64,000 bases of DNA. Origin: Psychrilyobacter atlanticus DSM 19335. Lineage in GTDB: Bacteria > Fusobacteriota > Fusobacteriia > Fusobacteriales > Fusobacteriaceae. The translations under genes and the position numbers were made by a program. Below, piece after piece: positions 9,594 to 63,449 of this stretch. How positions within the stretch are numbered: position 1 is the stretch's first letter; every line of letters begins with the position of its first letter. The stretch lies in NCBI RefSeq assembly GCF_000426625.1, contig NZ_KE384547.1, positions 1,789,159 through 1,853,158 of the forward strand, written 5' to 3'. The notes beneath the pieces were generated by a model, which did no database searches, was not told the origin of the DNA, and saw only the letters and a program-made list of their open reading frames with translations.

Positions 9594-9734
9594 TTATTTT
9601 AAAACAGGGTGTTCAAAAGTATATAATTTTCCCAATATCATTTGTAATCTATTCAATTGCTTGCAGCCTAACGGCAATAATAATAACAGCAGCAATAATA
9701 ATAAATTTATAGATAAGATATTAGTTAAAATCAT
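9594..9734 (-). CDS. leuL: leu operon leader peptide (Leu10)
   Basis: A 46-codon ORF starting ATG at 9734 behind AGGAGG. Codons 11-20 are ten consecutive Leu codons (TTA, TTG and CTG), followed by PLGC. The organisation is promoter, short ORF rich in the end-product codon, alternative pairing element, terminator, then leuA. This is the classical leucine attenuator: a ribosome stalled on Leu codons leaves GGCTGC free to sequester the terminator 5' arm. The peptide itself probably has no other role. Confidence 0.88.
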   Translation of the reverse strand: MILTNILSINLLLLLLLLLLPLGCKQLNRLQMILGKLYTFEHPVLK

Positions 9735-10024: not shown

Positions 10025-10053
10025 TTTACATAGAGAAAATAATATGCTAGAAT
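10025..10053 (+). promoter_or_regulatory. met operon promoter
   Basis: TTTACA (10025-10030), 17-base spacer, then TAGAAT (10048-10053) with an extended -10 TGC just before it. It would start transcription near 10060 and give a leader of about 270 bases before hom. Confidence 0.75.
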
Positions 10054-10129
10054 GTTTAAAAATTAAAACTTTAGTAACAAAAAAGTTTTAATCTGAGAGA
10101 AAAAAATAAAAATAAGTGAGCTGATTAAG

Positions 10130-10183
10130 ATGGTTAATTCAAGAATCGGACAATTAAATATGCTAATGATGATGCTTTGGTAG
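10130..10183 (+). CDS. met operon leader peptide (Met-rich)
   Basis: A 17-residue ORF, MVNSRIGQLNMLMMMLW, ending at TAG. Four of codons 11-15 are ATG, with three in a row. Upstream GAGCTGAT matches 7 of 8 bases of the anti-SD complement GAGGTGAT at suitable spacing. It lies 70 bases after the promoter start and 86 bases before a strong terminator that precedes hom. By analogy with other amino-acid leader peptides, stalling at Met codons would reduce termination. No S-box, SAM-II, SMK or T-box signature was seen in the leader. Confidence 0.75.
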   Translation: MVNSRIGQLNMLMMMLW

Positions 10184-10192
10184 GGTTTGTAA

Positions 10193-10249
10193 CTTAAATT
10201 TTTTAAATTTAAGAACAGACTCGTTTTGTAGTAACTTACGAGTTTGTTC
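10193..10249 (+). promoter_or_regulatory. met leader hairpins between leader ORF and terminator
   Basis: Two abutting hairpins: CTTAAATTT/AAATTTAAG (10193-10213), and GAACAGACTCG/CGAGTTTGTTC (10213-10249, 11 pairs, 15-base loop). The 3' arm GAGTTT of the second can pair with AAACTC (10280-10285) in the terminator loop region. GATGCTT in the leader ORF (10171-10177) can pair with AAGCATC (10252-10258). These are candidate competing structures. Confidence 0.5.
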
Positions 10250-10268
10250 ACAAGCATCTTTAACTAGA

Positions 10269-10299
10269 AAGCCTGTGGGAAACTCCACAGGCTTTTTTA
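10269..10299 (+). terminator. met operon attenuator terminator
   Basis: AAGCCTGTGG / CCACAGGCTT, loop GAAACT, followed by a T run, about 30 bases upstream of hom. A strong intrinsic terminator inside the leader implies conditional readthrough. Confidence 0.88.
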
Positions 10300-10327
10300 T
10301 TTTACAAAATTTATTTGGAGGTAATAG

Positions 10328-11287
10328 ATGAAAGTTGGAATTATTGGAATAGGTACCGTAGGAAGGGAGGTTATCAATATTATTTCCTGCCAGAGGGCAA
10401 AGATAGAAAAATTATTGGGAGAAAAGATCGAAGTCCAAAAGATATGTAATAGAACGCCCAGGGAAGAATATGAAGATTATTCATTCACTCATGACTATAA
10501 AGAGATCCTAAAGGATCCATCTATTGATACTGTCATTGAATTAATGGGAGGGATAAAGATTCCATTGGAGATAGCTAAAAAAACTCTGACAGCAGAAAAA
10601 AATCTGGTTACAGCTAATAAGGAGCTTTTAGCTATCCATGGAAATGAGTTATTCCAGCTGGCAAAAGAAAAGGATGTAAAAATCTTTTTTGAAGCTGCTG
10701 TAGGAGGAGGAATACCTATCTTATCTCCCCTAAAAGAATCTCTCTTTCCCAATAATTTTAAAAAAATAAGAGGAATATTAAATGGAACAGCAAATTATAT
10801 TTTGACACAGATGAGTGAAGGAGCCAGTTATGAACAAGCTTTAAAAGATGCAACTGAAAAAGGATACGCTGAAACAGACCCAACATTTGATGTTGAAGGA
10901 ATTGATTCTGCTCATAAGATCAGTTTACTGAGTTATCTGGCTTGGGGAGAAATAAAAGAATTTAAAGAGATAAAAATAGATGGGATCACAGGATTAACAG
11001 CCAAAGATATAGAAAAAGCTGCTAAGAACAACCAGAAATATAAATTGTTAGGTGAAGCTGCCATAGATGAAGATACACAAAAAATAACCCTAGCCGTTAA
11101 ACCAATATTAGTGGGAAAAGGTGACCTATTCTACGAGGTCAACGGAATATACAATGCTATAGAAATAGAGGGAAGTTATACAGGAAAAACAATTTTTTAT
11201 GGGGAAGGGGCAGGAGGAAATGCTACAGCAAATGCAGTGATTTCAGATCTCTATAAGGTGATAAACAGTAAAAGTTGGCAGAGATAA
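10328..11287 (+). CDS. hom: Homoserine dehydrogenase without ACT domain
   Basis: Reduces aspartate semialdehyde to homoserine. It has the NAD(P) loop GIGTVGREV near residue 8, the catalytic GILNGTANYILTQM near 147, and DPTFDVEGIDSAHK near 192-205. At 319 residues it lacks the C-terminal ACT domain of the common ~430-residue form, so threonine feedback is probably absent. GGAGG lies 7 bases before the ATG. As first gene of the met operon it appears dedicated to methionine. Confidence 0.92.
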   Translation: MKVGIIGIGTVGREVINIISCQRAKIEKLLGEKIEVQKICNRTPREEYEDYSFTHDYKEILKDPSIDTVIELMGGIKIPLEIAKKTLTAEKNLVTANKELLAIHGNELFQLAKEKDVKIFFEAAVGGGIPILSPLKESLFPNNFKKIRGILNGTANYILTQMSEGASYEQALKDATEKGYAETDPTFDVEGIDSAHKISLLSYLAWGEIKEFKEIKIDGITGLTAKDIEKAAKNNQKYKLLGEAAIDEDTQKITLAVKPILVGKGDLFYEVNGIYNAIEIEGSYTGKTIFYGEGAGGNATANAVISDLYKVINSKSWQR

Positions 11288-11328: not shown

Positions 11329-12600
11329 ATGAATTTTAAATTTGAGACATTACAACTACATGCAGGACAAGTAAAAGATACCTTAACAGGAGCTAGAGCA
11401 GTCCCTATCTATCAAACTGCATCATATACTTTTAAAGATGCTGATCACGGAGCTAGACTGTTTAACCTAGAAGAGGAGGGAAACATCTATACAAGAATAG
11501 GGAACCCTACAACTGAAGTGTTAGAAAAAAGGGTAGCAGCATTAGAAGGAGGGGTAGGAGGATTGGCAGTCGCCTCGGGATCAGCAGCTATAACTTATGC
11601 CCTTCTGACTATAGCTAGATCAGGAGACGAGATAGTTTCAGCCAAGGGGATCTATGGGGGAAGCTACAACTTTTTGTCCAATACAATAGAGGATTTTGGG
11701 ATAAAAACTAGGTTCTTCGAGACCTCTAATTTAAAGACTTTGGAAGATGCTATAACTCCTAAAACAAAGGTGGTTTTTATAGAGACATTGGAAAATCCCA
11801 CAGGACAAATAGTCGATCTAGATGCCATATCAAAGGTAGCTAAAAAACATGGATTACCCCTAGTTGTAGATAATACCTTTGGGACACCCTATCTAATAAA
11901 ACCCATTGAACATGGGGCTAATATAGTAGTTCATTCAGCTACAAAGTTTTTAGGCGGTCATGGAACTACAATAGCAGGAGTTATCGTAGATGGTGGAAAT
12001 TTTGATTGGAAAGATGATAGATTTGAATCATTTAATACTCCTGATTCGGGATATAATAATCTGGTCTATTCAGATTTAGGAGAACAGGCATTTATACTAA
12101 AAGCTAGGGTGAGATTATTACGGGACACAGGAGCAGCTCTTTCTCCTTTTAGTGCTTTCTTGATCTTACAGGGGATTGAAACACTTTCTCTCAGGGTAGA
12201 AAGACATGTAGAAAATTCAAAAAAAATAGCTGAATACCTAAACTCTCATCCGGAAGTGGATTGGATAACTCATCCAGAATTTACGACTGAAGAACAAAAA
12301 AAATTAGCCAATAAATATTATAAAAAAGGTGTCGGATCGATATTTACCCTTGGATTACATGGTGGAAAGGAAAGAGCCAAAAGATTTATAGAAAGTTTGG
12401 AGATCTTTTCCCATCTAGCCAATGTAGCAGATGCCAAATCTTTAATTATCCATCCTGCAAGTACAACTCACGGCCAGTTAAGTGATGAACAATTAAAAGC
12501 AGCAGGGATAAAACCAAATATGATAAGAATTTCAATAGGATTAGAAAATATAGATGATCTCATAGGAGATCTTGAAAATGCAATAACAAACTCCAAATAA
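11329..12600 (+). CDS. metY: O-acetylhomoserine sulfhydrylase
   Basis: PLP enzyme of the Cys/Met metabolism family that makes homocysteine from O-acetylhomoserine and sulfide. The 423-residue length, the start FETLQLHAGQ, YTRIGNPTTEVLEKRVAALEGG, and the PLP lysine in HSATKFLGGHG near residue 207 fit MetY rather than MetB (about 380 residues). AAGGAGG lies shortly before the ATG. It uses the product of metA in the same operon. Confidence 0.93.
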   Translation: MNFKFETLQLHAGQVKDTLTGARAVPIYQTASYTFKDADHGARLFNLEEEGNIYTRIGNPTTEVLEKRVAALEGGVGGLAVASGSAAITYALLTIARSGDEIVSAKGIYGGSYNFLSNTIEDFGIKTRFFETSNLKTLEDAITPKTKVVFIETLENPTGQIVDLDAISKVAKKHGLPLVVDNTFGTPYLIKPIEHGANIVVHSATKFLGGHGTTIAGVIVDGGNFDWKDDRFESFNTPDSGYNNLVYSDLGEQAFILKARVRLLRDTGAALSPFSAFLILQGIETLSLRVERHVENSKKIAEYLNSHPEVDWITHPEFTTEEQKKLANKYYKKGVGSIFTLGLHGGKERAKRFIESLEIFSHLANVADAKSLIIHPASTTHGQLSDEQLKAAGIKPNMIRISIGLENIDDLIGDLENAITNSK

Positions 12601-12659: not shown

Positions 12660-13535
12660 ATGAAGATAAAAGACATATTTAAAAATAAAGATACAGTAAT
12701 CTCATTTGAGATCTTTCCACCCAACAATAAGTTCCCCATAGAAAAAATATATAAAACTATCGATGAACTAGCAGAACTAAAACCGGATTATATAAGTGTC
12801 ACATATGGAGCAGGGGGAACCAGTCAGAGTAGAACTGTAGAGATCACCAAGAGAATTAAAAATATAAATAAGATAGAAACCATGGCTCATTTAACCTGTA
12901 TAGGCGCTACCAAAGAGTCTATAAATAGTACTTTAACCCAGTTAAAAAATAATGGAATAAAAAACATCTTAGCCCTGAGAGGGGATATTCCCAGAGATAA
13001 AGTCTATGATTCACAGTTTAGCTATGCCAGTGACCTGGTAAAACATATAAAGAAAGAAAATACTTTTTCTGTGGCAGGAGCCTTTTATCCTGAGGTTCAC
13101 TTTGAAAATAATGATCTATTAGATCTTTTCCATCTGAAAACAAAGGTCGAATCTGGAACGGATTTTTTAGTCTCACAACTGTTTTTTGATAATGAAGATT
13201 TTTATGCATTTAAAGAAAAAACTCAAAAATTAAATTTAAATATTCCACTAGTTGCAGGAATCCTACCTGTAACAAATTATAAACAGATCCAAAAAGTAAG
13301 GGAACTATGTAATGCAAGGATCCCAAGGAAATTTCAGGCTATACTAGATAAGTTCAAGGACAATCCAAAAGCATTAGAAGAGGCTGGAATAACCTATGCC
13401 ACAGAACAGATCATAGATTTAATAGCTTCTGGTGTAGAAGGAATTCATATTTATACAATGAATAAGGTCGACGTGACCAGAAGAATATTAGAAAATATAA
13501 AATATATTCGTAAAGGAATCGGGGAGGCCGAGTAA
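12660..13535 (+). CDS. metF: 5,10-methylenetetrahydrofolate reductase
   Basis: Flavoprotein TIM barrel producing 5-methyl-THF for MetH. The 291-residue protein has ISFEIFPP near residue 14, YGAGGTS near 47, THLTC-like MAHLTCIGAT, NILALRGD, and the C-terminal GVEGIHIYTMN. Met operon position matches its role as methyl donor supplier. Confidence 0.95.
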   Translation: MKIKDIFKNKDTVISFEIFPPNNKFPIEKIYKTIDELAELKPDYISVTYGAGGTSQSRTVEITKRIKNINKIETMAHLTCIGATKESINSTLTQLKNNGIKNILALRGDIPRDKVYDSQFSYASDLVKHIKKENTFSVAGAFYPEVHFENNDLLDLFHLKTKVESGTDFLVSQLFFDNEDFYAFKEKTQKLNLNIPLVAGILPVTNYKQIQKVRELCNARIPRKFQAILDKFKDNPKALEEAGITYATEQIIDLIASGVEGIHIYTMNKVDVTRRILENIKYIRKGIGEAE

Positions 13536-13560: not shown

Positions 13561-14367
13561 TTGAGAGGTATAGCAGACTCTAAAGACAGCGGTATCCTCT
13601 TTAAAAATAAAAAAAAATCTACTGCTAAGATAAAGATCGGAGTTATAAATTTAATGCCCTTTAAGGTAGAGGTTGAATCTCAATTTTTTAACCTCCTAGG
13701 TAGGTATAGTCTAGCAGTAGAGGTCGAATTTTTATACCCGGACAATCATATTTCAAAACACACCTCAATGGAATATTTAGAAAAAAACTATATTCCACTC
13801 AGTAAATTAGAGGAAAGGAATTACCAGGGTCTGATTATAACAGGGGCTCCTATAGAGAATAGAGAGTTTGAAGATGTAAAGTATTGGGGGAAATTAAAAC
13901 CTATATTTGATTTGGATATTCCCAGTATCTATATTTGCTGGGCCAGTCAGGGAGCATTATATCACCATTATAAGATTTCAAAACACCCGCTAAAAGAGAA
14001 GATCTTCGGGATTTTTAATCATAGTGTTAATAAAAATAAGTTAATTCAATTAGATAAGTTTCATGCACCACATTCTAGAAATACCTACAATAAAAAAGAA
14101 GATCTTCTAGAGGCAGGTCTTGTGATAGTCGCAGAAAATGAAAAAGCTGGAGTATACATGGCGACTACAAAAAACTTGCAAAAAATCTATATCTCAGGGC
14201 ATGGTGAATATCAAATAAATACTTTAGATAAAGAATATCGAAGAGACCTGAAAAACCTCCCTGAAAACTACTATAGAGGTAATGACCCAACTAAAGAAAT
14301 ATTATTTACTTGGGATAAACACAGGGATATTTTTTATAAAAATTGGTTAGATATGATAATCAAATAA
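13561..14367 (+). CDS. metA: Homoserine O-acyltransferase
   Basis: Class I glutamine-amidotransferase-like enzyme that acylates homoserine. It has INLMP near residue 31, ITGAPIE, the nucleophile in YICWASQGALYHHY near 122, GIFNH, HAPHSRN, and ISGHGEY with the catalytic His/Glu. MetY next to it suggests acetyl rather than succinyl transfer. No ATG start exists: TTG at 13561 has no ribosome binding site, while GGGGAGG (13521-13527) is best spaced for an ATA at 13537 or ATT at 13543 in the same frame. The true start is uncertain. Confidence 0.9.
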   Translation: MRGIADSKDSGILFKNKKKSTAKIKIGVINLMPFKVEVESQFFNLLGRYSLAVEVEFLYPDNHISKHTSMEYLEKNYIPLSKLEERNYQGLIITGAPIENREFEDVKYWGKLKPIFDLDIPSIYICWASQGALYHHYKISKHPLKEKIFGIFNHSVNKNKLIQLDKFHAPHSRNTYNKKEDLLEAGLVIVAENEKAGVYMATTKNLQKIYISGHGEYQINTLDKEYRRDLKNLPENYYRGNDPTKEILFTWDKHRDIFYKNWLDMIIK

Positions 14368-14394: not shown

Positions 14395-15594
14395 GTGGGA
14401 ACTATTATTCAGAAATTTGGAGGAACCTCTGTAAAAAATACAGAAAGAATATTAGAAATTGCTAAAAAAATTGTAGAAAGAAAAAAGCTGGGAGATGATA
14501 TAGTTGTTGTATTATCTGCCCAAGGAGGATATACCGATACCCTTTTAAAAAAAGCACACAATATATCCAAAACTCCTAAAAAAAGGGAATTAGATGTATT
14601 GTTATCAACTGGAGAACAGATCTCTATAGCTCTCTTGGCTATGGCAATAGAGGAACTAGGTGAAAGTGCGATTTCATTTACTGCAACACAACTAGGGATA
14701 AAAACCTGTAGTAATTACAACTGTGCCCAGATCTTGGATATAGAGAATAAAAAGATAAAAGAAGCATTAAAGGAAGGGAATATAGTTGTTGTGGCAGGAT
14801 TCCAAGGAGTCGATCCATATGGAAATATAACCACACTAGGACGGGGAGGTTCTGACACTACTGCTGTAGCATTAGGAGTAGCTTTAGATGCACAAGAAGT
14901 AGAGATTTATACAGATGTTGATGGTATCTATTCCGCGGATCCAAGGGTAGTTAAAGATGCTAAGAAAATAGATGAAATTAACTATAGTGAGATGATAGAG
15001 ATGGCTGGAAACGGAGCTAAAGTCCTCCACAGTAGAAGTGTGGAACTGGCCTGTAAATACAATATTAAAATACATTTACGTTCCTCATATTCATGGAAGG
15101 AAGGGAGTATTGTCAAGGGAGAAGATGAGATGGAAAAAGAAGTAATCCGAGGAATTACCCACAGTAAAAATTTATCTAAAATAACTTTAAGAGATACCCC
15201 CCATAGATTGGTAGATGTTATAAACACCTTATCTAATAAAGGGTATAACATCGATATTATTACCCATGATTTTGACCTTGAAAGGGGGGCTACAATCTCA
15301 TGTATTTTAAAACAGGAGTTATTGGAGAGTGCTTTTGAAGTTTTAGAAGACAAATACCCTGAGAGTAGAAAAAACCTAATTCATATCCCAAATCTCGGAA
15401 AGGTATCTGTCATAGGAATAGGTGTGAAATCAAAGGGGGTAGCAGCACAAGTTTTTAAAGTATTGTCTGAAAATAATATTTCCATTGAGATGGTATCTTC
15501 ATCAGATATAAATATTTCCTGTATCATCCACCAGAAAAATCTAGAAAAGGCGGTATCCCTCCTTCATAGAGAATTAATTGAGGAGGCCAAATGA
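14395..15594 (+). CDS. lysC: Aspartate kinase
   Basis: Phosphorylates aspartate, the entry step to homoserine and lysine. The 399-residue protein has IIQKFGGTSV at the start, FTATQLGI, TTLGRGGSDTTAVALG near residue 145, and DGIYSADPR near 182. Two C-terminal ACT repeats (about 265-399) give allosteric control. It starts with GTG, with GGAGG 9 bases upstream. Inclusion in the met operon suggests a methionine-dedicated isozyme. Its last four bases overlap metH. Confidence 0.93.
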   Translation: MGTIIQKFGGTSVKNTERILEIAKKIVERKKLGDDIVVVLSAQGGYTDTLLKKAHNISKTPKKRELDVLLSTGEQISIALLAMAIEELGESAISFTATQLGIKTCSNYNCAQILDIENKKIKEALKEGNIVVVAGFQGVDPYGNITTLGRGGSDTTAVALGVALDAQEVEIYTDVDGIYSADPRVVKDAKKIDEINYSEMIEMAGNGAKVLHSRSVELACKYNIKIHLRSSYSWKEGSIVKGEDEMEKEVIRGITHSKNLSKITLRDTPHRLVDVINTLSNKGYNIDIITHDFDLERGATISCILKQELLESAFEVLEDKYPESRKNLIHIPNLGKVSVIGIGVKSKGVAAQVFKVLSENNISIEMVSSSDINISCIIHQKNLEKAVSLLHRELIEEAK

Positions 15595-18500
15595 ATATAA
15601 ATATAGATATTGATATAAAACAGATTTTAAAAGAAAAAATAATGGTTTTAGATGGAGCTATGGGAACATCTATTCAAAACTATAATTTAACCGAGGAAGA
15701 TTTTAGAGGTGAGAGGTTTAAAGATTTCCCTTCTAAATTAAAAGGAGCTAACGAACTTCTCAACCTGACCAGACCTGATATTATAAAAGAGATCTATAAC
15801 AGCTATATAGAGGCCGGAGCTGATATTATAGAGACCAATACTTTTAATGGAAATACTATATCTATGGCAGATTATAATCTAGGGGAGCTGGCATATGAAG
15901 TTTCCTTAGAGGGAACTAAACTTGCTAAACTTAGAGTTTTGGATCATTTTGAAAAAACTGGAAAAAAAGTATGGATAGCAGGTTCTATAGGTCCTTCCAA
16001 CAAAAGTATAAGTATAGATTCATCGGAAATGAATTTTGATTTCCTAAAGAATGCCTATAAAAATCAAATCAGAGGAATCCTTCATGGAGGAGGAGATCTG
16101 CTTCTTATCGAAACTATATTTGATGGTTTGAATGCAAAGGCGGCAGTTGTCGGAGCAGAGGAGGTTTTTGAGGAGGAGGGAGGGACACTTCCGATTATGA
16201 TCTCAGCTACAGTGGATAAATTTGGTAGACTATTATCTGGGCAGACCATGGAATCATTGGTTGTTTCCTTAGACAGAGATTCTATCCTATCCTTTGGTTT
16301 GAACTGTTCCTTTGGAGCAGCTGAGCTTATACCACTGATTCATAAATTAGGGAAATTTACCCATAAACCTATCTCTATATATCCTAATGCTGGATTACCC
16401 AATGAAATAGGAGAATATAGTCAGACTCCGGAAGAGATGACAGAAATTTTAAAAAATTTAATAAATCATTCAGGAATAAATATTATAGGAGGGTGCTGTG
16501 GTACAACCCCTAAACATATAGAACTCATAGCAGAAGCAGTCAAAGATAAAAAATCTCGAATTCCAAAGATAAAAAACTTAGAGTTTAGTATCTCAGGAAA
16601 TAAAGTCTTAGGTGAAGAGGGATTTTTGATCGTAGGAGAGAGAAATAATGTAGCAGGGTCTAAAAAGTTTGCAAGGCTGATAAAGGAAAAAAAATATGAT
16701 GAAGCTTTAGAAATTTCAAGAACTCAAGTAGGTGGAGGAGCTCATATCCTAGACCTCAACCTAGACGATGGATTGATAGATTCTAAGGCAGAAATGAAAA
16801 TATATATAAAGTTACTCCTATCTTCTACCGATACTGCGAATATTCCTATCATGATTGACTCCTCGGATTTTGTGATAATAGAGGAAGGATTAAAAAATCT
16901 ACCCTCTAAAGGAATTGTTAACTCACTCAGTCTAAAAGACGGAGAGGAGGAGTTTATTAGGAGAGCCAAAATAGTAAAAAAATATGGTGCTGCTCTGGTA
17001 GTTATGGCCTTTGATGAAAGTGGTCAGGCAGATACATTTCAAAAAAAGATAGAAATTTCCAAAAGATCCTATGATTTGCTGTTAGGAATAGGTTTTTCTC
17101 CTGCGGATATTATCTTTGATACAAACATTCTAACTATCGGAACGGGGGAAAAAACAGATAGAAATTATGCAAGAGACTATATAAACTCTATAAAATGGAT
17201 AAAAGAAAATTTACCTTATGCCAAAACAAGTGGTGGATTAAGCAATGTTTCATTTGCGTTCAGGGGAAATAACCCATTAAGACATGCTATTCACCAAGTA
17301 TTTTTGAGGTTAGCCAAGGAAAGCGGGTTAGATATGGTAATAATGAATCCAGCAGAAAAAACAATGGAGATAACAAAATCTCTGGAAGATAAGATCTACA
17401 GCCTGATCATAAATACAGAAGATATCTTGGATTCATTGTTAGATGAACAGATAGAAAAAATAACAACTCCTAAAACAACAGAAAAAAAATCTGATCCAAG
17501 GGTTCAGATTATAGATAATTTGGTTAATGGAAGTAAATTGAATTTAACAATTCTTATAGATCTGTTATTAAAGGATTACTCTCCCATCTCAATAATACAG
17601 GATATATTGATGGAAGGGATGGAAAAAGTAGGAGAACATTTTAATAATGGTAAATTATTCCTCCCCCAGGTAGTCAAAAGTGCTGTGATTATGAAAGAAG
17701 CCGTAACTTACTTAACTCCCAAAATTAAAAATGAAAAAATAGATATGGGACACAGGAAAACCATAGTTATGGCAACTGTAGATGGCGATGTCCATGATAT
17801 CGGAAAAAACATAGTAAAAACAGTTCTAGAATGTAACGGTTATAGGATCATCGATCTAGGAGTGATGGTTTCTATGGATGATATTATAGCTGCAGTAAAA
17901 AATGAAAATGTAGATGCAGTTGCATTAAGCGGACTCATCACACCTTCTCTACATGAGATGGCAAGGGTAGCTGAGAAAATGGCAAAAGAGGGATTTGATA
18001 CCCCCATTTTCATTGGAGGAGCTGCTACATCCAGCCTTCATACTGCCATAAAAATAGAACCAAATTATAGTGGACGTGTATTTCATCTGACAGATGCTTC
18101 TAACACGGTAGTTGTGTTAGATAAGATCTTAGGTGGAGATATAGAATATAAATCTGCTGTATTAAATTCATATGAAGAGTTGAGAAAAGCTTATCAAAAA
18201 ACTGAAGAAGATAGATCCTATCTAAGTTTAGAAGAAGCCTTTAAAAGAAAGGAAAAAATCGATAACAAGGTAATAGAGCCAGCTAAAACAGGTGTATTCG
18301 ATCTAAATATTAATATCACAGATATCGAAAAATCTATCAACTGGGATATATTTTTACACGATTGGAAAATAAAGGATACCTCTAAAGAGATCGACATTTT
18401 AATAGATGGTAAAAAATATCTAGAAATATTAAAAAATAAAAAAATAAAAATATCTGCAAGATATGGGATTTTTGACGTGGAGAAGAAACCGATGGATATT

Positions 18501-19010
18501 CTAAAGATTAATGATATTGACCTTCCAATGGTTAGAACCCAGCAATGGGAAACTTCCTTGTCGTTAGCAGATTTTGTAGAAGACAAGGATTATATTGGAA
18601 CTTTTGCTGTGTCGATAGATACCGTATCTGGAAAAACAGAATATGAAGATATTATGTATAAATTACTCGGAAACAGATTAACAGAAGCTGCAGCAGAGTA
18701 TCTAGAGAAAAATGTGAGTAAAATAATTCCAGTTAGTATAAGGCCAGCAATAGGTTATCCAATTTTACCCGATCATTCTATGAAAAAAGAGGTTTTTGAT
18801 CTGATGAATGTATGGGAATTAGGAATAACTCTTAGTCCAAATTATACTATGACACCTATTCATAGCGTCTGTGGCCTATTATTTTTTAGTGAAAAGGCAA
18901 AATATTTTGATCTAGGAAAAATCGATGAAAACCAGGTAGAATCTTTAGCAAAACACAGAGGAATTGATTTTAGTAAAATGAAAGAAAATTTAGGTATTTC
19001 TATTTATTGA
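15591..19010 (+). CDS. metH: Cobalamin-dependent methionine synthase
   Basis: Transfers methyl from methyl-THF to homocysteine through cobalamin. The 1139-residue protein has all modules. The homocysteine domain (about 1-320) has its zinc Cys in FGLNCS near 238 and GGCCGT near 301. The pterin domain (about 335-600) includes NNVAGSKKF and GGGAHILDLNLDDG. The cap and B12 domain (about 640-860) has GDVHDIGKN near 733 with the cobalt-ligand His. The activation domain (to 1139) has RPAIGYPILPDHSMK. It begins ATGA over the lysC stop, so it is coupled. Last gene of the operon. Confidence 0.96.
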   Translation: MNINIDIDIKQILKEKIMVLDGAMGTSIQNYNLTEEDFRGERFKDFPSKLKGANELLNLTRPDIIKEIYNSYIEAGADIIETNTFNGNTISMADYNLGELAYEVSLEGTKLAKLRVLDHFEKTGKKVWIAGSIGPSNKSISIDSSEMNFDFLKNAYKNQIRGILHGGGDLLLIETIFDGLNAKAAVVGAEEVFEEEGGTLPIMISATVDKFGRLLSGQTMESLVVSLDRDSILSFGLNCSFGAAELIPLIHKLGKFTHKPISIYPNAGLPNEIGEYSQTPEEMTEILKNLINHSGINIIGGCCGTTPKHIELIAEAVKDKKSRIPKIKNLEFSISGNKVLGEEGFLIVGERNNVAGSKKFARLIKEKKYDEALEISRTQVGGGAHILDLNLDDGLIDSKAEMKIYIKLLLSSTDTANIPIMIDSSDFVIIEEGLKNLPSKGIVNSLSLKDGEEEFIRRAKIVKKYGAALVVMAFDESGQADTFQKKIEISKRSYDLLLGIGFSPADIIFDTNILTIGTGEKTDRNYARDYINSIKWIKENLPYAKTSGGLSNVSFAFRGNNPLRHAIHQVFLRLAKESGLDMVIMNPAEKTMEITKSLEDKIYSLIINTEDILDSLLDEQIEKITTPKTTEKKSDPRVQIIDNLVNGSKLNLTILIDLLLKDYSPISIIQDILMEGMEKVGEHFNNGKLFLPQVVKSAVIMKEAVTYLTPKIKNEKIDMGHRKTIVMATVDGDVHDIGKNIVKTVLECNGYRIIDLGVMVSMDDIIAAVKNENVDAVALSGLITPSLHEMARVAEKMAKEGFDTPIFIGGAATSSLHTAIKIEPNYSGRVFHLTDASNTVVVLDKILGGDIEYKSAVLNSYEELRKAYQKTEEDRSYLSLEEAFKRKEKIDNKVIEPAKTGVFDLNINITDIEKSINWDIFLHDWKIKDTSKEIDILIDGKKYLEILKNKKIKISARYGIFDVEKKPMDILKINDIDLPMVRTQQWETSLSLADFVEDKDYIGTFAVSIDTVSGKTEYEDIMYKLLGNRLTEAAAEYLEKNVSKIIPVSIRPAIGYPILPDHSMKKEVFDLMNVWELGITLSPNYTMTPIHSVCGLLFFSEKAKYFDLGKIDENQVESLAKHRGIDFSKMKENLGISIY

Positions 19011-63307: not shown

Positions 63308-63340
63308 TCTATATATATTAAAATATTAGGTATCTATCTT

Positions 63341-63403
63341 CTTATAGTCAGCTGTTTAAGGTAGCTGGTAGAAACTTTTCGCCATATCCGAAATTTATAT
63401 AAG
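63341..63403 (-). ncRNA. Purine riboswitch, guanine-type
   Basis: The minus strand has CTTATA...TATAAG (P1), GGATATGGC, GTTTCTACC, CCTTAAAC and GACTATAAG, the purine aptamer core. The C in GACTAT at the specificity position (as in xpt) indicates guanine or hypoxanthine rather than adenine. It precedes the permease gene. Confidence 0.93.
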
Positions 63404-63420
63404 TTTTTTTTATTGAAAAG

Positions 63421-63449
63421 ATTATATCACTTTTCCCATAAAATTACAA
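63421..63449 (-). promoter_or_regulatory. Purine permease promoter
   Basis: TTGTAA (63444-63449), 17-base spacer, extended TGATATAAT (-10 at 63421-63426), just ahead of the aptamer. Confidence 0.7.

Follow-up and report, generated by a model that had tools for sequence, protein, structure and literature searches.

The methionine operon and its leader

The 64-kb stretch of DNA analysed here (the window) belongs to a genome of 3.54 Mb (G000), and the metY protein of the window is 92% identical to that of 'Fusobacteriaceae bacterium UBA2433' (phylum Fusobacteriota). On the plus strand there is an operon whose first gene is hom (homoserine dehydrogenase, 10328-11287), followed by metY (O-acetylhomoserine sulfhydrylase, 11329-12600), metF (methylenetetrahydrofolate reductase, 12660-13535), metA (homoserine O-acyltransferase, 13561-14367), lysC (aspartate kinase, 14395-15594) and metH (methionine synthase, 15591-19010). 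The genes were assigned with NCBIfam, metA at a score below the family cut-offs. The gene hom stands between the leader and metY in the window and in the sister genome G059, and in two relatives metY is found directly behind the leader.

The original prediction was that a Met-rich ORF of 17 codons lies between a promoter and a terminator ahead of hom-metY-metF-metA-lysC-metH, and the coordinates, the folding and NCBIfam confirm this arrangement. The ORF (10130-10183, plus strand, as are all the leader features that follow) has an ATG start and a TAG stop and encodes the peptide MVNSRIGQLNMLMMMLW*, with Met codons at 10160, 10166, 10169 and 10172; the peptide is identical in G059 and G055. The Shine-Dalgarno sequence of the window copy is weak (AAGTGAGCTGATTAAG), and the paralogous leaders and those of a second genus (g3) have a good ribosome-binding site (GAGG or AGGAG).

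Upstream, at 10025-10053, there is a promoter-like site TTTACA-17-TAGAAT with an extended TG. It had been called a good promoter. It scores 10/12; such matches are no commoner in the region than expected by chance (5 against 5.2), but the stretch is conserved in G059. By eye, the metG and metN paralogous leaders are preceded by TTTACA-17-TATTAT. The terminator, which had been described as strong, is an intrinsic one at 10266-10297 (segments 3 and 4) with 14 pairs and a T-run; two terminator-like sites were found in the region where 0.3 were expected.

Between the ORF and the terminator the following elements can be distinguished. Segment 1 (10174-10190) comprises the end of the leader ORF and its stop, is predicted to pair with segment 2 and contains segment A, GGGUUUG (10183-10189). 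The predicted hairpin P1 (CUUAAAUU...AAUUUAAG) occupies 10193-10213 and the hairpin P2 (AACAGACUCG...CGAGUUUGUU), which shows paired changes between paralogues, 10214-10248. The motif CAGACTC-N-TTTTG (10216-10228) is segment B, forms the 5' arm of P2 and is a proposed RNA polymerase pause site. Segment 2 (CACAAGCAUCUUU, 10249-10261) has two alternative partners, segment 1 or the 5' arm of the terminator. The stretch after the ORF has a folding z of -7.27, and none of 200 shuffles was as stable.

Paralogous leaders in the genus of the window

A DNA search with the window leader found two further copies in its own genome, with around 81-82% identity (QLNMMMMLWKGL). One of them, with the peptide MKNIEFRQLNMMMMLWKGL, is upstream of a methionyl-tRNA synthetase gene (metG; NCBIfam), and the other, with MRNFEFRQLNMMMMLWKGL, is upstream of metN-metI-metQ (metNIQ; NCBIfam). 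The synthetase behind the leader is the second copy in the genome, the other being at G000:C2:879915; when the N-terminal 100 residues were used as the query, a second methionyl-tRNA synthetase was found in 3 of 98 genomes.

Six of the eight genomes of the genus carry complete leaders, 12 altogether: 4 of the metY type, 2 of the metG type and 6 of the metN type. Around the Met run the peptide is conserved within the genus as QLNMMMMLW, and the ORFs also carry Leu codons and an invariant Trp codon (LMMMLW, MMMMLW). In G059 the second methionyl-tRNA synthetase (L055, G059:C2:1505382-1506900) is broken by stops and its leader is intact. The same genome has a truncated additional Met leader without a terminator (L057, G059:C2:1158977-1159038), around 13 kb from the intact copy.

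Leaders in other genera

A covariance model (R1) built from 8 metN and metG leaders of the genus gave weak full-length matches in the second genus, g3, which also belongs to the Fusobacteriaceae (E 0.004 to 0.1). The peptide encoded by these leaders is a different one but likewise contains a Met run; it reads MFDKIIKTTMMNMMPLGVGTKN ahead of metY-metF and MTTHNLISKTTMMNMMMPMGVGTKN ahead of metN, the core being TTMMNMM (TTMMNMMPLG). A second model (R2), built from the g3 leaders, found 18 leaders in 10 of the 12 g3 genomes, located before metY, metN, lysC (one leader) and a lipoprotein gene that NCBIfam left unplaced (two leaders); L200 and L201 sit at contig ends, with their downstream genes outside the contig. 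Reciprocally, R2 matches nine leaders of the window's genus (E 5.6e-7 to 2e-5), and it does not recognise the window's own copy. With R1 and R2 no leader was found in most of the other Fusobacteriota genera. Candidates L207-L212 turned out to be terminator or coding matches, and L065, L068 and L069 showed terminator similarity alone, so none of them was kept as a leader.

In a third genus, g25, which belongs to another family, leaders were found independently of both models by reading upstream of metY genes for which neither a leader nor a SAM-I riboswitch had been listed. In 3 of the 4 genomes MINYKYINDNMMMYMRYRV or MIKYKYLNDNMMMYMRYRV precedes metY and is followed by a terminator hairpin, the peptide core being NDNMMMYM (NDNMMMYMRYRV). 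Besides, in genus g13 (L234 and L235, in G051 and G053) we noticed Met- and Cys-rich ORFs with a similar terminator hairpin before metY.

All the leaders examined, 29 in the first two genera and 3 of g25, have at least three Met codons after the start, the Met run being partly a search criterion in the first two genera because those leaders were found by similarity. The G005:C118 leader, which contains a run of N, was excluded from the peptide and structure comparisons of the 29. Conservation of the Met codons in relatives had been set beforehand as the test of the prediction: the run is kept in three genera of two families and the rest of the peptide varies. Control of the operon by a Met leader peptide is thus supported by conservation before metY, metN, methionyl-tRNA synthetase and lysC.

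A shared RNA architecture

The layout is common to all the leaders: the ORF, P1, a motif resembling ACTC-N-TTTTG, P2 and the terminator. The motif has the form CAGACTC-N-TTTTG, with CGAACTCATTTTG or a close variant in g3. In 9 of the 10 leaders measured, from three genera and with differing P1 sequences, its last T lies 14 nt after P1, which is exactly the distance in the window, and in the remaining one the distance is 15 nt. Furthermore, the motif sequence fits the consensus of polymerase pause sites (G-10, pyrimidine-1, G+1). CAGACTC-N-TTTTG occurs 39 times in the 98 genomes, against 10 for the backwards pattern (summed controls); the matches away from leaders, as inspected, were in coding sequence or had no leader ORF and were discarded.

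Regarding the pairing, MAFFT misaligns the 3' arm of P2 between the paralogue groups, and therefore the pair counts were taken from model-fitted alignments, which are biased towards the structure. On this basis 98.0% of the cells pair in the genus of the window, where three pairs of P2 differ in both bases from one paralogue group to the other, and 99.5% pair in g3, where two terminator pairs are changed on both sides.

Alternative pairings and folding with a ribosome

All 29 leaders tested are predicted to form a helix between segments 1 and 2 as soon as segment 2 has been transcribed (3.6 to 13.6 expected pairs). Alternatively, segment 2 can pair with the 5' arm of the terminator (segment 3) as an antiterminator. 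The antiterminator was compared with shuffled sequences in 10 of the 29 leaders. In g3 the observed value was reached by 3, 13, 13, 21 and 23 of 200 shuffles, and in five leaders of the window's genus by 48, 83, 113, 124 and 160 of 200, that is, it is not better than in shuffles there. In the ribosome-free state the 1:2 helix mostly wins in the metN and metG leaders of the window's genus, and the equilibrium favours 2:3 in the metY leaders of that genus and in most g3 leaders, so that a kinetic argument is needed for these.

We then have the folding with a ribosome placed on successive codons, which covered 11 of 31 leaders, the G089 metY leader being excluded. The distance from the first Met of the run to the start of segment A (G[GA]GUUUG; GAGUU in g3) is 20-25 nt. 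In the scan, A can pair with B as long as the ribosome occupies the Met codons; this pairing is lost when the ribosome is at the last Met or beyond, where B is found in P2 instead. The antiterminator behaves differently in each genus. In g25 it goes from around 9 pairs to 1 at the last Met, a clean switch. In g3 the fall, from around 7 pairs to 2-5, comes when the ribosome is two to three codons beyond the run, and 5-7 pairs are present again once it stands on the stop. In the genus of the window it hardly falls and is not switched off at equilibrium. Compared with shuffles, A:B alone was not significant in any leader tested (reached by 41-350 of 500; 10 of 31 leaders, again with the G089 metY leader excluded), and in the window copy A:B (GGGUUUG) is weaker than in the sister genomes.

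In the folding with a ribosome, which had been proposed as a check, the predicted switch thus falls on the Met codons or shortly after them; it is clean in g25, fair in g3 and incomplete in the genus of the window. The modelled positions agree with the classical attenuation mechanism, and we infer the exact circuit in the window.

Proposed mechanism

The leader very probably acts by ribosome-mediated transcription attenuation and responds to charged elongator Met-tRNA. Met-codon conservation, gene context, the hairpins and the shared layout are the basis of this reading, from which we infer the stalling, the exact pairings, the pause and the signal. The ribosome would trail RNA polymerase along the leader ORF, and P1 together with the ACTC-N-TTTTG motif would probably pause the polymerase, letting the ribosome catch up. 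When Met-tRNA is plentiful, the ribosome would clear the Met run and reach the stop, P2 (B paired with its 3' arm, C) would form, segment 2 would be withheld from segment 3 and the terminator would form. When Met-tRNA is short, the ribosome would halt on the Met codons, and the end of the leader would pair with B or be masked from segment 2. Segment 2 would then be free for the 5' arm of the terminator and the operon would be transcribed. That the attenuator is keyed to Met codons, as had been proposed, is well supported by its presence as three paralogues and in three genera, nearly always before methionine genes.

The Met residues might instead act within the ribosome tunnel and not as codons, methionine or SAM triggering arrest by the nascent peptide. 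The conservation of QLNMMMMLW within the genus would be expected of such a peptide, but it also follows from RNA pairing. Moreover, the peptides differ outright between genera (QLNMMMMLW, TTMMNMMPLG and the g25 core given above), whereas the Met runs keep their position relative to the RNA segments across genera. We consider this arrest quite improbable, and codon sensing by attenuation is preferred.

Known RNA families and SAM-I at orthologous genes

No SAM, T-box or other family of Rfam matches the window leader at the gathering threshold, and no match at the relaxed threshold was credible. The relaxed matches to the trpB motif and to Thr_leader were below the cut-offs and centred on P2 and the terminator, and they were rejected. 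Regarding the families that would be expected at methionine genes, there is no match to SAM-I (RF00162) and none to a T-box family, relaxed threshold included. Met genes of some Firmicutes have a T-box as their tRNA-sensing leader. A T-box would likewise respond to tRNA charging, but the Met leader conserves a translated ORF instead.

SAM-I controls in the sister genera the orthologues of the genes that the Met leader precedes here: their metN and metY mostly have SAM-I riboswitches in place of leaders. Across the phylum, with SAM-I counted among the matches listed and the leader given precedence over it, 63 metN places divide into at least 41 with SAM-I within 400 nt, 14 with a Met leader and at most 8 with neither listed. 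The 24 metY places divide likewise into at least 8 with SAM-I, 8 with the leader (2 of them via hom) and at most 8 with neither listed. This last figure is an upper bound which includes the g25 leaders as well as a g3 metY near a contig end, a metY-type leader being found at the end of another contig. By eye, no SAM-I lies near any leader among the matches listed. A second metN of g3 has SAM-I in at least 5 genomes. In the window's genome a single SAM-I appears among the matches listed (L150, G000:C2:2308549-2308650), before a transporter-like gene pair, which by eye resembles a membrane protein of the ECF substrate component type and an ABC ATPase. We also observed a tandem pair of SAM-I riboswitches upstream of metN at G054:C1:126841-127100, and a purine riboswitch (RF00167, 66.7 bits) on the minus strand of the window at 63325-63422.

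The strong conserved structure of P1, P2 and the terminator, and the control of the same genes by SAM-I in sister genera, would also fit a metabolite-binding riboswitch or tRNA-binding leader of an unrecognised kind, in which the ORF is incidental. However, apart from the Rfam results, the ORF and its Met run persist, whereas the sequences of segments 1 and 2 differ from genus to genus, which makes such an element very improbable. SAM-I senses SAM without translation, unlike the attenuator that we propose.

Leaders with other codons

On the minus strand of the window, at 9594-9734, another leader ORF (MILTNILSINLLLLLLLLLLPLGCKQLN...) with ten consecutive Leu codons precedes leuA. It lies between a promoter-like site TTGACA-17-TATTAT (9796-9768) and T-rich hairpins, and it is likely a Leu attenuator divergent from the Met one. 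This neighbour bears on what the Met leader senses. Leucine or tryptophan might be suggested by the Leu codons and the invariant Trp codon of LMMMLW and MMMMLW, but the downstream genes are methionine genes, Trp is absent from the leaders of g3 and g25, and the leu operon has its own Leu-run leader. Therefore, sensing of Leu or Trp is extremely improbable. The ORF might also be a product of chance in an intergenic stretch that is conserved. Short ORFs in which 8 codons include 4 or more Met do arise by chance in such AT-rich sequence: the 64-kb window has three, the leader and two others, against none in 30 control loci (116,437 bases). Conservation nevertheless refutes chance practically beyond doubt, with 33 leaders in three genera, almost every one of which was seen to precede a methionine gene.

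In g25 there are leaders with His codons before hisZ-like genes (KIRKHHHIGRV or KIKAHHHIGRV; L113 in G090, L304 in G089 and L305 in G088), and a leader ending in NMCMCSRRV before a sulfite-reductase-like gene (L301, G090:C1:538442), possibly a Cys or Cys/Met attenuator. All four carry CAGACTC-N-TTTTG, and two of the four downstream genes were checked by NCBIfam. Separately, in g3 we noticed a possible leader with Thr and Ile codons (L064, L066, L067 and L070), the peptide MHITTII being listed in 3 of these 4. It is followed by a hairpin and a terminator, and the gene behind them is symporter-like by eye.

We tentatively suggest, with somewhat less than even confidence, that Fusobacteriota use one scaffold, made of an ORF ending near G[AG]GUUUG, P1, the CAGACTC-N-TTTTG pause or switch element, P2 and a terminator, and exchange the codon run on it, with Met codons ahead of metY, metNIQ and methionyl-tRNA synthetase, His codons ahead of hisZ and Met-Cys ahead of the sulfite-reductase-like gene. 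The Met version may have taken the place of SAM-I at these methionine genes, so that a regulon which used to sense SAM would now sense Met-tRNA.

Comparison with known attenuators and significance

We know of no amino-acid leader-peptide attenuator for methionine. A literature search, whose coverage left subscription journals mostly outside, returned no Met leader-peptide attenuator and no attenuator described in Fusobacteriota, so within that coverage the suggestion that the Met case may be new holds.

The trp, his, thr and leu operons of E. coli are controlled by leader-peptide attenuators. As in these, there is a short ORF with a run of cognate codons, followed by alternative hairpins and a terminator before the first gene, and the genes belong to the same amino acid as the codon run. 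In contrast to them, the leaders described here use Met codons and occur in Fusobacteriota, two conserved hairpins separate the leader from the terminator, and an aminoacyl-tRNA synthetase and transporters are also among the genes preceded.

According to the accessible part of Naville and Gautheret 2010 (PMC2965389), demonstrated leader-peptide systems were confined to Proteobacteria and Actinobacteria until that paper's own His case in Firmicutes. The His leaders of bacilli described there, which precede hisZ and hisS paralogues, resemble the Met leaders in lying outside Proteobacteria and Actinobacteria and in occurring as paralogues, ahead of a biosynthetic gene on the one hand and of a synthetase paralogue on the other. 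However, those leaders are for His and from Firmicutes, and that part of the paper names no Met leader and makes no mention of Fusobacteri-. The Cys leaders of the mycobacterial cys operons (PMC1262725) are likewise leader peptides for a sulfur amino acid. As far as the accessible text of that source goes, they have no conserved terminator hairpins, whereas the Met leader has an intrinsic terminator and Met codons, and no leader-peptide attenuator for methionine is reported in Actinobacteria.

The mechanism is of a known kind. Within the coverage given above, the novelty lies in methionine as the sensed amino acid, in a regulon of several genes that includes a synthetase, in the swap with SAM-I and in the scaffold that the leaders share. 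The Met version poses the question of how a shortage of elongator Met-tRNA is told from the initiation failure that a shortage of Met also causes. Furthermore, Fusobacteriota allow SAM-sensing and Met-tRNA-sensing control of the same genes to be compared side by side.
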